Part shown: in pieces, positions 47,196-53,219 of the stretch | Numbering within the stretch: position 1 is the stretch's first letter | How the letters are laid out: every line of letters begins with the position of its first letter | Assembly (NCBI GenBank): GCA_020831585.1 | Contig: JAFIGE010000014.1 | Span: 1-53,219, forward strand | Length of the DNA: 53,219 bases | Reading direction: 5' to 3' | Source: Opitutales bacterium | GTDB lineage: Bacteria > Verrucomicrobiota > Verrucomicrobiia > Opitutales > Oceanipulchritudinaceae | Made by a program: the position numbers and the translations under genes | The notes under the pieces: model-generated | Told to the model about the DNA's origin: nothing | The model's input: the letters and a program-made list of their open reading frames with translations, nothing else | Database searches by the model: none

Positions 47196-49757
47196 TCACC
47201 GCCATTCATGTTTTGGGTAGCGACCCCTCAGATCTTTCTTCACGGCGAGGTAACTGGTGCTCCAGAACGCGTCGAGGTCGGCGGTTATCTGTACGGGGCG
47301 CTGATTTGGGGCGAGGAGCTCGACTTTTGGGCGATGGCGCCCGTCGGCGAGGACAAGCTGCGCGTGGGGCACATCGTAGAGTTGTTGAATACGGGCGGAA
47401 ACGATGGCCCCGTCGCCTTCATAGCGTATACGGGCGCGGGCGCCATTGGGCAGAAGGATTCGCTCGGGAGCCAACCGGTCGACTTCGGGAAGGAGTCCGT
47501 CGGGCAGCCATGCGTGAAGGGTCGGCCAGACGTCGCGGTCTTTCAGCTCTTTGTAAGAAGGCGCGCCGTGGCAGATTTGCTCGAGGAGCAAGCGGCGTTC
47601 GGCGCTTTCGATGAGAGCGAAACCGTAGTCGGGGCACACGCGTGCGAGGAAGTTCACGCGGGCAATCCATCCTTCCACAGAGGGTCCCCAGTTTTTGAGA
47701 ATGAAAGCGCCTTCCTGAATTCCATCGGCGAAGAGGCCAGCTGCGATATCGGGATCCACCTCTCCGCCATCCCTCTCACTGAGGACCAGGTCGCGGAAAA
47801 CAACGCGTGTGCGGGCGACGGCCCGGCGGGTGGATGAGTCGATGAGCGTTTCCGTTTTGTTGGAAAAGTCGTCCGGGAAGTGCTTCCGCAGCCACTCGGG
47901 ATCGATTGCGGTGTTGCCGCCCAACAAAAGAGACACGTCCCGTCCCTTCTGGCGCTCCTCCACCTCCGTAGCGACGAAGTAAGAGGCCTCTTCGAGGTGG
48001 CTGTAGGGGGCGATTTCACCACGCCGGTTGTGGACGAGGGCGCACCGGCGGGTGACGCTGTCGAGTCGCTTTGCGAGGTGATCGGCAAAACCGAGAAGAA
48101 GGCATTCGCGGGCAGCGGATTCGTCGATGTTTGGGGGGCATTCGAGGGAGAGGCCTTCACGGCGGGCGATATGGGTGAGCTGATCCGCCACCTCGGCCGC
48201 ACGCCGGGCGCGTTGGGCATGGAGGCCGGTGGCGCGGGCAAACTCGGGATCAAAGCGGTTGGCCTGAAGGAGGCTCCATGCTGCCACTTCAAGAAAGAGA
48301 TCCGATGTCACGGGGTGTCCGCCGCAGAGCTTGTCGAGGCGCGCGTTTGTCTCGCGGGCGTTGGGCAGGGGCAGCAAAAGGGAGCGGTCCTGACAGAGCG
48401 CGACCATGCGGATAATGAGCGGAAGCACCCCCATTTCGTGACCGGCGAGGAGCAATCGCGACCAACGGGGGTGCAGCGGAAAGGCCGCCATTTTGCGTCC
48501 GAGGGGCGTGAGCTGGGCTTCTGAATCAAGCGCCCCGAGATCGTCGAGGAGGGTATGTGCGCGCCCCCAGGCAGCGGGTTCCGGTGGATCAACCCAGGGA
48601 AGTTGGGTGATTTCCGATGGGGTGAGAAGATCGGCCAGTTGCAAGCGGGCCGGGCCAAGGTCGAGCCGGTGGATCTCCGGGGCAAGGTTGGCGGGTCGGG
48701 CAAAATGATCGGCTTCCGACCAGAGGCGGAGGCACATACCGGGACCAAGGCGTCCGGCTCGTCCGGCCCGTTGATCGGCGGAAGCGCGAGAGATCTTTTC
48801 GACGAGAAGGGTGTTGACTCCCCGTCGTGAATCGAAGCTCGGAATGCGGGCAAGGCCGCTGTCGATAACCGCGCGCACACCGGGGAGGGTGAGGGAGGTC
48901 TCGGCGATGTTGGTGGCGACAATGATCCGGCGTCCGCCGTCGTCGTCGATCGCGGCGTCCTGCTCCTCGGGGCGCAACTCACCGTGCAGGGGGAGCACGC
49001 GGCAACCCTTCGCTTCCGGGGTTGCCCGCAGCGCTTCCACGGTGCGGCGGATTTCGTAGGCACCGGGCATGAAGATCAGAAAACTGCCTCCGTCGACCTC
49101 GCGGGCCAGTCGGCGGTAAGCAGTGGCGGCGCGTTCCCATACCGGTGTCCGCGCGTCGGCTTCCGCCCCGCGCGCGTAGCGGATGTCCACCGGAAATTGA
49201 CGTCCGTCGGTGTTCAGCCGGGCACAGGGAGCAAGATGATCCGCCAGCAAGTCGGCATCCAGGGTGGCGGACATTACGCCGATGATGAGGTCGGGCCGGT
49301 GGCTCTTTTGCAGATCAAGGGCGATGGCGAGGGAGAGGTCGCTGTCGAGATGGCGCTCGTGAAACTCATCGAAGAGGAGGGTCCCTACGTCCGATAGCCG
49401 CCGATCTTGGGCGAGCCGTCGCAGAAGGATGCCCTCGGTGATGTAGAGAATCTCGGTTTGCGCGGACTGAACATTTTCAAAACGCACCTGATAGCCCACC
49501 CGGTCACCGAGACGGGAGCCCGACTCCTGAGCCACCCGCCGGGCAAGCAGGCGGGCGGCGACCCGGCGGGGTTGGAGAACAACAATGCGCCCGCAGTTGC
49601 CACCGGTTGCCTCCCGGATCATACTCGGCAGGCGAGTCGATTTGCCGGACCCGGTGGGGGCACTGAGGACGAAGCGCCGGTAATCCCGCAGCGCTGTGGT
49701 GAGATCGGCCTGGATCTCCTCAATAGGGAGCGCTGTCTTATCGTGAGGTGAAGGCAT
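47196..49757 (-). CDS. hrpB: ATP-dependent RNA helicase HrpB (DEAH/RHA type)
   Basis: An 853-residue superfamily 2 helicase. In order it shows SAPTGSGKST (Walker A), LQPRRVAARLLARRVA, DEFHERHLDSD (motif II, DEFH as in HrpB), MSATLDADLL, TNIAETSLTLPGVRAVIDSG (motif V) and QRAGRAGRLGPG (motif VI). The HrpB-specific C-terminal domain ends LAVKKDLRGRYPKHEW. Length is normal for HrpB (about 810-850). The biological role in bacteria is poorly defined. The start MPSPHDKTALPIEEI at 49757 fits family alignments; GTG at 49805 or ATG at 49796 would add about 13-16 residues. Confidence 0.93.
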   Translation of the reverse strand: MPSPHDKTALPIEEIQADLTTALRDYRRFVLSAPTGSGKSTRLPSMIREATGGNCGRIVVLQPRRVAARLLARRVAQESGSRLGDRVGYQVRFENVQSAQTEILYITEGILLRRLAQDRRLSDVGTLLFDEFHERHLDSDLSLAIALDLQKSHRPDLIIGVMSATLDADLLADHLAPCARLNTDGRQFPVDIRYARGAEADARTPVWERAATAYRRLAREVDGGSFLIFMPGAYEIRRTVEALRATPEAKGCRVLPLHGELRPEEQDAAIDDDGGRRIIVATNIAETSLTLPGVRAVIDSGLARIPSFDSRRGVNTLLVEKISRASADQRAGRAGRLGPGMCLRLWSEADHFARPANLAPEIHRLDLGPARLQLADLLTPSEITQLPWVDPPEPAAWGRAHTLLDDLGALDSEAQLTPLGRKMAAFPLHPRWSRLLLAGHEMGVLPLIIRMVALCQDRSLLLPLPNARETNARLDKLCGGHPVTSDLFLEVAAWSLLQANRFDPEFARATGLHAQRARRAAEVADQLTHIARREGLSLECPPNIDESAARECLLLGFADHLAKRLDSVTRRCALVHNRRGEIAPYSHLEEASYFVATEVEERQKGRDVSLLLGGNTAIDPEWLRKHFPDDFSNKTETLIDSSTRRAVARTRVVFRDLVLSERDGGEVDPDIAAGLFADGIQEGAFILKNWGPSVEGWIARVNFLARVCPDYGFALIESAERRLLLEQICHGAPSYKELKDRDVWPTLHAWLPDGLLPEVDRLAPERILLPNGARARIRYEGDGAIVSARIQQLYDVPHAQLVLADGRHRPKVELLAPNQRPVQITADLDAFWSTSYLAVKKDLRGRYPKHEWR

Positions 49758-50007
49758 AGGAGAATCGAAGGCGATTCCCGCCGGACCTTCAACCATGGGA
49801 ATCACGATTTTGGTGATGCGGGAAGGGATCGGGTCCGGGGGGGGGCCGTGGAAAGTAGTTCGGCTGATTCATCGCCGGATCGCGACGCAAAGGAGGCTAG
49901 GCACTTTCGAGCGCCGCAGGCGACGAGGCAGGCGCACGACGGGCGAACGGCGTGTTTCCGCCTCAGGTCGACCACTGAAGCAGGTCGACTACGGACGGGG
50001 GTCGTCT

Positions 50008-52389
50008 TTACCAGTGCCGTGTATAGCGAAGCTGGATACGGCGCGGGAGTTCGCGGGCGACAAACTGGTTGTTGAAGAAGGTGTCGCCGTTGTGCCGCCA
50101 GTTGGAAGAATTGCCGAGGTTGAAGATATCGAGCGAAAAGCGGTCGGCGGCTCGTTCCCACGTGAGGCTGAGGTTGCCCTCGTTCTGTGCGGGTAGGGTG
50201 AATTCGCGGCGCAGGTTGCCATCCTGCTCCGAGCGCCAGACCCACCACACATTGGCGGTGAGGTTGTTTGTCAGGCGATGGCTGAGACCGGTGCTCACTT
50301 GCCACCGGGAGTGCCCGGGGAAGCGGTAGTTGCCGGGCGGCAGGCTGTTGAGAAAGAAGCCGCCGATGTAGCCCAGGCCATTGCCCAATCCCTCCGGTCC
50401 CGTGCCGGGGGCGAAGACATTGCCGATACTGCTGCCCCCGAATTCCGCCGGAGAGGCGTTTTTGTAGTGCGCATCCACATAGGCCGCATTGGCGAAAATC
50501 CGCCAGCGCGCACCAACCGGACTCCACGCCGACTCCAGCTCGACGCCCTTGCTCTCCACGTCGCTCGGACCAAAGAAGTCGCGGCGCACGCGGGTTTGCC
50601 GGAAAAGCGTCCACCCCGCACTCAAATCGCCGCCGCCGAGGCTGTAGCGACCTCCCATTTCCCAGAGCCGGGAACGGTTGTCCAAATCCTCCGCACGAAT
50701 GCCTTCTTCCACGTAAAGATTCAGACCGTCGCTCACGGTGTTGCCCCCCACCGCTGACATGAGATTGAAGGCGAGGTAATGCGCCGCCGGGCCCCGCTGA
50801 TAGTGGAGCGCGCCTTCGAAGCCGACGGTTTCATTGGAGGCCCGTGCGCGGACGGGCGCTACTCCGGGAGGTGGGAGCGGATTTCGCGCGCGGGCGCGCA
50901 GAAGGTCGCCGCGCACGCCCGTGACCAAGCGCAGCCCTTCCGTGATTTGCCATTCCGGGCGCACGAAAAGCGCCAGGTTGGTCAGGCGGGAATCGGACGT
51001 CTCGGGCGTGGCGAAGGGGCTTTGCGGGCTGTAATACGGTTGCCCGTCGGGACCATCGACCGCACCGGGTGCGATGAATGCGGGGAAGCGGGCGAGTGTA
51101 TCAAATTCCCGCCCCGCCGTGATATCGAAGGCGTAGGCAAACTCATTCCAGTAATTGGTGAAGCCGAGGCGTTCCTCGTAGCGGATTGTTGCCCCCGAGA
51201 CGGCACTCCATCCATCGCCCGCATCCGGTTGCCAGAGCCACTCGGTGCGGTTTTCGAAGGTCCACTGAGTGGCCCGCTCCAGATACAGAAACCCGTTGCG
51301 CTTCCGCCGGTGCGCATGATCGACAAGGGTGCGGTTGATCAAACGATCCCCCGAAGCCAGCTCCTCCGTCCAGATGGTCTGGGCATAAAATGCGTTTGCA
51401 TTCGCATAATCATCTTGGGAGAGGAGAATATCCCGCCGGTCGATGCGGGTGCGGTCTTCCGGGCCGGGAACGAGGAGCCCCGGATCGACGACGCCCGGCG
51501 TGAAGATCCCCAAATCATCGGGCGGCACGAATGTGGGATCGGGTTCGCCGGTGAAATAGAGATTGCGGCGCAGGAGATCGTTGTCGGGGCGGTTCACCCC
51601 CAGCGTCTGGGGCGCGGCGGACCATTGATATTGAAAAAACATCTCCACTTTGCGCGAAGGCAGTGGATTCCAGAGGAGGGAGAGGAAGAGCTCCTGAAAG
51701 TCGTCGCGCCCGTCGTTCCGGTGATAGAAGGTTTCGTTCCACTGACCCGCATACGCGAACTGCCAGGACCAGGCGGGTCCGATTTCGCCCCGTTGCCGGA
51801 GCCCGATTTCGGCATCGCGATAGGAGCCTCCGCCGGAGGGCACCCAGGTGCCGAGGCGCAGGGACAGCTCGCCGGTCGGTCGGGTGGTTTCCGCGGCGGC
51901 CAGCGGAATAAAGTTGATGAGGCCGCCGGTCTTGCTACCGGGACCGAGGACCACATTGCCCGGCCCGCGCACGATCTCGATGGCTTCCATGGAGTGGTAG
52001 CTCGGGCGGAAACCGAAGAGGTTGCCGCTCCGGCGCTGGCCGTTGATGAAGGTTTCCGCCACATCTCCCCGAAGATTGGGCACGGTGGCAACGCCGAAGC
52101 GGGCGGGAACGGAGATCCCTGGGACTAGCGGAACCAAGTCTTCCACGCGGCGCACGGCGAAGGCGTCCATCTCCGGGCGAGTGAGCATGGCCGCCGAACG
52201 CACCGCCTCTCCGGGGGCGAGGCTGAGTGTGCCGGCGCGTGTGGCGCGGAGGTTGGCCGCCGTATCGGCAGCGGCGACCACGGCCAATTCGTCCAGTTCG
52301 ACGATGAGGGAGTCGGTTTCGGCAAAGGCCGAAAGACCTGTCGAGAGAGCGGCGGCGGCAAGCAGCGCGGAGGCGGATAATCTATGCAT
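50008..52389 (-). CDS. TonB-dependent outer-membrane receptor, probable thiamin/precursor uptake
   Basis: A 793-residue receptor. The signal peptide MHRLSASALLAAAALSTGLSAFAE precedes a short linker and a plug domain (RRVEDLVPLVPGISV, FINGQRRSGNLFGF, MEAIEIVRGPGNVVLGPG, GGLINFI). The rest is a beta-barrel rich in aromatic/Arg strands, ending LPRRIQLRYTRHW with a terminal aromatic as usual for barrel assembly. A TPP riboswitch lies in its leader, which is the main evidence for thiamin, a phosphorylated form or a pyrimidine precursor as ligand. Sequence alone resembles siderophore-type receptors. A GTG at 52437 would lengthen it by 16 residues; the signal peptide supports 52389. Confidence 0.9.
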   Translation of the reverse strand: MHRLSASALLAAAALSTGLSAFAETDSLIVELDELAVVAAADTAANLRATRAGTLSLAPGEAVRSAAMLTRPEMDAFAVRRVEDLVPLVPGISVPARFGVATVPNLRGDVAETFINGQRRSGNLFGFRPSYHSMEAIEIVRGPGNVVLGPGSKTGGLINFIPLAAAETTRPTGELSLRLGTWVPSGGGSYRDAEIGLRQRGEIGPAWSWQFAYAGQWNETFYHRNDGRDDFQELFLSLLWNPLPSRKVEMFFQYQWSAAPQTLGVNRPDNDLLRRNLYFTGEPDPTFVPPDDLGIFTPGVVDPGLLVPGPEDRTRIDRRDILLSQDDYANANAFYAQTIWTEELASGDRLINRTLVDHAHRRKRNGFLYLERATQWTFENRTEWLWQPDAGDGWSAVSGATIRYEERLGFTNYWNEFAYAFDITAGREFDTLARFPAFIAPGAVDGPDGQPYYSPQSPFATPETSDSRLTNLALFVRPEWQITEGLRLVTGVRGDLLRARARNPLPPPGVAPVRARASNETVGFEGALHYQRGPAAHYLAFNLMSAVGGNTVSDGLNLYVEEGIRAEDLDNRSRLWEMGGRYSLGGGDLSAGWTLFRQTRVRRDFFGPSDVESKGVELESAWSPVGARWRIFANAAYVDAHYKNASPAEFGGSSIGNVFAPGTGPEGLGNGLGYIGGFFLNSLPPGNYRFPGHSRWQVSTGLSHRLTNNLTANVWWVWRSEQDGNLRREFTLPAQNEGNLSLTWERAADRFSLDIFNLGNSSNWRHNGDTFFNNQFVARELPRRIQLRYTRHW

Positions 52390-52454
52390 ACGGGTGATGG
52401 CGATACAGGTTGGGTTGTTCACCAAATCACGCCGCACGGAATGCCGTTAACTCG

Positions 52455-52545
52455 ACCTCCCTGCGCCAGCATGATCTGGATCAGGTTCAACGGGTCAGGC
52501 AGTGAAGATCCGCCAATCTCAGCCCCTCGATAGGGACCCCCCGGG
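52455..52545 (-). promoter_or_regulatory. TPP riboswitch (THI element)
   Basis: Read on the minus strand, the conserved TPP aptamer elements appear in order: GGGGGGTCCC, GAGGGGCTGAGA (CTGAGA at 52517-52522), the central TGACCC, TGAACCTGATC (52479-52489) and GCTGGCGCAGGGAGG. These match the pyrimidine-sensing CUGAGA loop and the 3' GAACCUGAUC...GCGxAGGGA consensus. It ends about 66 nt before the TonB-receptor start. No clear U-tract terminator follows, so translational control is more likely. Binding of TPP is expected to repress the receptor. Confidence 0.95.
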
Positions 52546-52656
52546 TTGAAGGAGACGAACGAAAGGAACTCTCCTTCACGCACGCAAGAATGAAATGGGC
52601 GAAAATCCAAAAGCCGGTGTGATCACAAAGGTTCTCACACCCGAATCGGGGCTTCT

Positions 52657-53219
52657 TCAGTGGCGTTTCACCCAGGTCGCGACGGTCGCGAAGTCAGCCC
52701 CTCCCTCATCCACAACCGGTCGGGCCTTCTTTCCCCTCATATACCCCAGCCAGCCATCTGCCGCACAGAAGCTTTCCACCCAAGCAACCGACCCCACCAC
52801 CCAGCTCTCACTGAAGGCGCGGATCTTCGAAAGAAGCCTGGATCTTTGGGCCACAACGGCTCCTGACATCGTTTCCTCCTTTAATGCACCTTCTGCCACA
52901 GTCTTTTGGTCTCCCCGAAGAGGTCGCGCTCCTGGCCCCATCCGGCTGCACAACCGCGCACGGTAGCGCTCATGCCATTTCGTCGACCAAGTCATCTTGC
53001 CTTCGATCCGGGCGATCCCCCGCCGCGCCGCCGAGCCACCTGCGCACGCCTCCCCGAAACCACTGAAAGCATAGGCACCCACATTCTCCACCAGACCTGC
53101 CCGCACCGGGTTCAAGTCGATATACGCCGCGACCATCTTTTGCGCCTCCGTATCCGCCTCCACGATTACACTGCGGAAACGCTCCGCCCAGAACGTGCCC
53201 ACCGTCCCGTGCTTCTGAT
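52657..53219 (-). CDS. REP-associated tyrosine transposase (RAYT), C-terminal part, cut by window end
   Basis: The last 187 codons of a third RAYT copy; the N-terminus lies beyond the window. It includes the nucleophile region AAYIDLNPVRAGLV and the same C-terminal extension as the complete copy (CSRMGPG, AFSESWVVGSVAWVESFCAADGWLGY), ending WVKRH. It is more diverged from copy 2 in the linker after CSRMG, with a few extra residues. Its last 72 bases nearly repeat the first 72 bases of the window. Confidence 0.9.
   Translation of the reverse strand, partial: QKHGTVGTFWAERFRSVIVEADTEAQKMVAAYIDLNPVRAGLVENVGAYAFSGFGEACAGGSAARRGIARIEGKMTWSTKWHERYRARLCSRMGPGARPLRGDQKTVAEGALKEETMSGAVVAQRSRLLSKIRAFSESWVVGSVAWVESFCAADGWLGYMRGKKARPVVDEGGADFATVATWVKRH
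53148..53219. repeat. 72-bp terminal repeat of the window (matches 1-72)
   Basis: The final 72 bases match the first 72 bases with two mismatches (window positions 47 and 50 at the start). Both lie in RAYT coding sequence in the same orientation. This is typical of a contig ended by a repeat; it would also be compatible with, but does not prove, circular closure. Confidence 0.85.

Follow-up and report, generated by a model that had tools for sequence, protein, structure and literature searches.

Locus organization

The window, the 53,219-nt stretch of DNA analyzed here, is an entire contig (C125) of a 5.28-Mb genome that is 98.5% complete, with 0.05% contamination, in 262 contigs. Its minus strand carries, from 5′ to 3′, a TPP riboswitch aptamer (52441–52553), a predicted leader hairpin (52387–52438), and the gene of a 793-aa TonB-dependent receptor (50008–52389), whose ATG at 52389, about 50 nt downstream of the aptamer, opens a good signal peptide (MHRLSASALLAAAALSTGLSAFA). 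A cmscan of the whole window against 4,227 Rfam families matched RF00059 (TPP) at 52553–52441 (−) with 75.4 bits against a gathering score of 54.3 (E, 4e-13), and no other family exceeded its gathering score. The alignment spans the complete model (positions 1–105) and, read together with the sequence, places the CUGAGA core, the pyrimidine-binding element of TPP aptamers, at 52517–52522 (−) and the GAACCUGAU conserved core at 52480–52488 (−). The ligand-binding core sequence GCGCAGGGA is also present, the CUGAGA, GAACCUGAU, and GCGnAGGGA elements are intact, and the P1 helix contains a single mismatched pair, A-C. The TPP riboswitch is genuine. The original prediction, that the core THI-element motifs stand on the minus strand ahead of a TonB receptor gene, was upheld by the Infernal check it proposed, the score lying above the threshold rather than below it; the interval given for the element, 52389–52545, takes in the leader up to the ATG and the aptamer with its first 8 bases clipped.

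In an RNA fold of the 88 nt downstream of the aptamer, the hairpin at 52387–52438 (−) had a free energy of −26.7 kcal/mol and paired the AUG start codon (52389–52387), making it a candidate translational expression platform. The hairpin also appeared when the complete leader was folded to minimum energy (z, −2.4). No terminator-like site was found in this leader, nor was a clear Shine-Dalgarno sequence seen, and RNAalifold returned no common leader structure among relatives. The position of the AUG inside the predicted hairpin suggests that control is probably translational, as far as a fold prediction from one sequence can indicate.

The next gene on the receptor strand, about 200 bp away, encodes an HrpB helicase (47196–49805), in agreement with the description of the receptor gene as lone. 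As also predicted, no thiamin biosynthesis gene was found on the contig; the thi genes that were found lie on contigs C57, C101, C182, and C244. Assembly contamination was considered and rejected: the GC content and tetranucleotides of the window agree with those of the thi-bearing contigs, a composition in support of a single genome. A REP-type (Y1/IS200-like) transposase gene (52657–53217) lies upstream of the riboswitch at the contig end, and a gene of the same type ends contig C182, which carries TenA (L210, 5249–6103); the assembly probably breaks at both contig ends due to repeated transposase genes.

Within the receptor, Pfam recognized the Plug domain (PF07715; 28.2 bits against a cut-off of 23.9), whereas the PF00593 beta-barrel was unreported for this protein yet recognized in several of its relatives. 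The best NCBIfam match was the siderophore receptor subfamily TIGR01783, at 56.5 bits and far under its cut-off of 223.5, and phmmer found no match among PDB sequences. An AlphaFold2 model (pLDDT, 75; pTM, 0.81) aligned in Foldseek with solved TonB-dependent receptors over their whole length (E, about 1e-31; TM-score, about 0.6–0.75), the nearest being Fiu, PiuA, and FhuA at 12–16% identity. This match of a modeled structure is one of receptor fold and names no substrate. Sequence and fold alone would place the protein near siderophore receptors, and the riboswitch points to a substrate that similarity misses, as originally proposed; vitamin uptake is thereby assigned to proteins that similarity searches put elsewhere.

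A receptor clade paired with the TPP riboswitch

A homologue search of 273 genomes of the same order, with E below 1e-60 taken as strong, found receptors of the window type, here called class A, in 13 further genomes (14 in total). A TPP riboswitch lies just upstream in 12 of the 13 relatives. Eleven receptors are directly downstream of it, counting G271, whose riboswitch scores slightly below the cut-off (53.9 bits); in the twelfth, G144, riboswitch and receptor occupy facing contig ends. The remaining receptor, that of G227, lacks the riboswitch, and its gene shares 4 bp with a gene of the PnuC/PnuT transporter family. Contigs of named genomes gave no match to the single receptor protein, and an alignment query succeeded, returning 56 class-A loci, all labeled as Opitutales/Opitutae genera or Verrucomicrobia. 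The riboswitch was present at 48 of the 50 loci with enough upstream sequence (47 by motif, plus L165 by covariance model, the same locus as L075/G028); the two exceptions were L176, which shows the same 4-bp overlap with a PnuC/PnuT-family gene, and L181, a second copy. The search for the same pair in related genomes that the original prediction proposed found the pairing conserved across class A; the counterevidence it named, receptor orthologues consistently linked to siderophore loci without the riboswitch, did not materialize. Among the cultured hosts are Cephaloticoccus capnophilus CV41 and C. primus CAG34. Each has two class-A copies (L076, 4796–10421, and L073, respectively), and in C. 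capnophilus the riboswitch stands directly in front of the second copy only.

A quick maximum-likelihood tree resolved class A as one clade (SH-aLRT, 100), apart from a second group, class B (99). The window receptor sits deep within class A, its nearest relative being 36% identical, and falls outside the class-B clade, the order's presumed omr1 type. The receptors of G255 and G084, which bear a weak resemblance to class A, were placed outside the clade and rejected as members.

No siderophore genes were recognized among the neighbors looked at around class-A receptors, and no conserved neighbor gene emerged: a CNT transporter and a pRiA4-type gene recur, neither of them generally. The CNT nucleoside transporter gene lies directly or one gene behind the receptor in G031 and G063 (loci L065, 2942–5599, of G031, and L143); a close homologue is unlinked to the receptor in G004. 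It is a candidate inner-membrane partner. In at least 10 genomes (L069, L071, L076, L156, L162, L166, L169, L171, L180, and L196), the class-A receptor gene is followed, in the same orientation, by one for a pRiA4b ORF-3-like protein (PF07929).

Most of the TPP riboswitches examined outside thiC, about 50, precede a class-B receptor of about 700 aa (e.g., L082, 3917–6232; L083, 3812–5950), and a few precede thiM. The class-B locus of G070 has genes for thiamin pyrophosphokinase and a sodium:solute symporter as neighbors. Class B is presumably the omr1 type reported for Opitutales. The statement that thiamin-regulated receptors are known mainly in Bacteroidetes is partly outdated in view of these riboswitches and of the omr1 uptake described for Opitutales (PMC12442306). 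Another arrangement was observed in G056 (ThiC−, ThiG+, TenA+; L102, 2756–5666), where two divergent TPP riboswitches lie about 100 bp apart, one in front of a sodium:solute symporter gene and the other in front of a gene for an FAD-dependent oxidoreductase that precedes thiG. One order thus holds two receptor clades under the same riboswitch, of which class A occurs only in ThiC-less genomes.

Thiamin gene content

The window genome has two TPP riboswitches in all. The second one, on contig C57 (55.2 bits), precedes thiS (read from sequence), a TenI-like gene, thiG, thiH, and thiF. ThiC, the bacterial pyrimidine synthase, was not found in this genome, and ThiG, ThiD, ThiL, and TenA were; the TenA is a match to TenA proteins of solved structure and carries the catalytic-cysteine LPCYW motif. 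A ThiE proper was not located: the C57 operon offers a TenI-like gene instead (TIGR00693; 22 bits against 145), and the examined portion of the related complete genome G004, 77% of it, yielded none. Permeases of the NCS1/CytX type were not found in the window genome, and an inner-membrane transporter was not identified there. Judged by its gene content, the organism makes the thiazole half only and is not a full thiamin auxotroph, and it has a candidate pyrimidine-salvage genotype (ThiC absent; ThiG, ThiD, and TenA present).

The class-A genomes share the absence of ThiC (0 of 14, against 134 of the 259 others; Fisher's P = 9e-5, not corrected for kinship). Four of them, from four families (G000, G004, G014, and G028; type 1), possess ThiG, ThiD, and TenA; the other ten (type 2) lack ThiG and TenA, and nine of these, all except G206, also lack ThiD. 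TenA is rare in the order (14 of 273 genomes), being found in 4/4 ThiG-positive and 0/10 ThiG-negative class-A genomes and in 10/269 genomes outside the four. The presence of TenA in every type-1 genome has a P value of 4e-6, the groups having been set by ThiG before TenA was searched for. The type-1 receptors are not monophyletic in the tree. The predicted loss of thi genes is supported: ThiC is gone, often along with ThiG and ThiD, and the window genome keeps its riboswitch-led thiS-(TenI-like)-thiG-thiH-thiF operon. Thiamin pyrophosphokinase (TIGR01378) is absent from every class-A genome, including the window genome and the ThiG-negative ones.

A PnuC-family gene occurred in 11/11 ThiG-negative genomes whose receptor belongs to class A or resembles it and in 0/4 ThiG-positive class-A genomes. 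This correlation was dropped as a marker of the thiamin transporter PnuT because most copies adjoin a NadR-like kinase gene, which fits nicotinamide riboside uptake; the link was kept only for G227 and L176, where the gene overlaps that of the receptor.

Proposed substrate and alternative explanations

The absence of ThiC, the retention of ThiG, ThiD, ThiL, and TenA, and the rarity of TenA together suggest that the window receptor most likely delivers the missing pyrimidine half, as HMP, AmMP, or thiamin. For this genome, the ThiC gap lends partial support to the predicted uptake of "thiamin, TPP or a pyrimidine precursor" and narrows it, short of proof, toward the pyrimidine half. In the proposed mechanism, plentiful TPP would shut off the receptor through the leader riboswitch and scarce TPP would allow it. 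The receptor would then import a vitamin-B1 vitamer carrying the pyrimidine ring, a substrate suggested because the genome builds thiazole (ThiS, ThiG, ThiH, and ThiF) without ThiC. Imported HMP, AmMP, or TenA-cleaved thiamin could enter through TenA and ThiD, and the pyrimidine would be joined to the thiazole by a ThiE that is assumed, not located, before ThiL finishes the product. Taken as a whole, a riboswitch-controlled receptor importing a pyrimidine-bearing B1 vitamer is the best explanation, to which we assign a probability of roughly 0.75; TPP binding, the direction of control, and the substrate are what we infer. Within it, thiamin or thiamin phosphates are a plausible substrate, if short of even odds, and free pyrimidine (HMP or AmMP) is perhaps a shade less so. 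In type 1, the imported compound may be free HMP or AmMP, with thiamin that TenA then cleaves being about as compatible. In type 2, without ThiC, ThiG, and, in nine of ten genomes, ThiD, class-A receptors have to accept thiamin or its phosphates whole, so a pyrimidine-only substrate cannot hold clade-wide. Compounds bearing the thiamin pyrimidine may be the simplest common denominator for class A.

The main competing view is that the receptor imports intact thiamin or thiamin phosphates only, with the thiazole genes being a recent pathway remnant and TenA being otherwise employed. The ten class-A genomes that need whole thiamin, the two receptors overlapping a PnuC/PnuT-family gene (G227 and L176), and the thiamin-importing OMthi of Bacteroides, likewise under a TPP riboswitch (PMC5613172), are in its favor. 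In the window genome, however, the thiazole operon is intact beneath its own riboswitch, and three class-A genomes of different families have also kept ThiG, ThiD, and TenA. The lack of TIGR01378 from class-A genomes counts against it as well, although this is equally true of the ThiG-negative ones. We regard a restriction to intact thiamin as a tentative alternative, deserving about one-third credence. The idea that class A includes a TonB-dependent receptor for free HMP or AmMP in thiazole-making, pyrimidine-less bacteria is less likely than not. HMP is small enough to pass porins, which counts against a dedicated receptor, and we know of no outer-membrane transporter for HMP or AmMP. If the idea is true, such bacteria would have an energized uptake route for these compounds.

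Two further explanations would sever the receptor from thiamin. The TIGR01783 match and the nearest solved folds could indicate an ordinary siderophore receptor that carries a TPP riboswitch by coincidence; the TIGR01783 score is far under its cut-off, the riboswitch is kept across a clade that goes with the absence of ThiC, and the neighbors looked at show no recognized siderophore genes, which makes this explanation improbable. A decayed riboswitch with no effect on the receptor, for which the mismatched P1 pair and a leader without terminator-like structure or clear Shine-Dalgarno sequence could speak, is slightly more improbable still. Its 75.4 bits exceed the score of the riboswitch before the thiazole operon, and the distance from aptamer to start codon, similar among relatives (about 55–86 nt in most), argues for use. 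Uptake of a pyrimidine-bearing vitamer under riboswitch control remains our preferred reading. It has been described as unclear which transporters carry the pyrimidine compounds formed when vitamin B1 breaks down (PMC10470507), and class A offers a defined candidate set for them, with the cultured Cephaloticoccus hosts included.

Comparison with known systems

A TPP-controlled TonB receptor is a known kind of system. OMthi (BT2390) of Bacteroides thetaiotaomicron is a TPP-riboswitch-controlled TonB-dependent thiamin transporter (PMC5613172) and resembles class A in being a receptor of this type that supplies a vitamin-B1 vitamer. As described, OMthi works with PnuT and Tnr3 alongside a complete pathway, whereas the window receptor is a lone gene in a genome without ThiC. 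Closer in taxonomy is omr1 of Opitutales, reported in 2025 from Baltic metatranscriptomes (PMC12442306): as the presumed class B, it shares with class A the order and the presumed regulon, and it differs in length (about 700 aa versus about 800 aa) and in forming a separate clade. Putative thiamin TonB receptors were also predicted in several transporter clusters (PMC2771747, PMC3400609); those belong to other phyla, whereas class A was seen here only in Opitutales/Verrucomicrobiota records. The ThiV-like sodium:solute symporter of G056 is, like the window receptor, a TPP-riboswitch-controlled transporter in a ThiC−, ThiG+, TenA+ genome of the same order, but it is an inner-membrane symporter rather than an outer-membrane receptor. 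What is new here is class A itself, a receptor clade separate from class B under the same regulon and tied to ThiC loss, together with the ThiC-less, TenA-bearing setting in which the window receptor is found.
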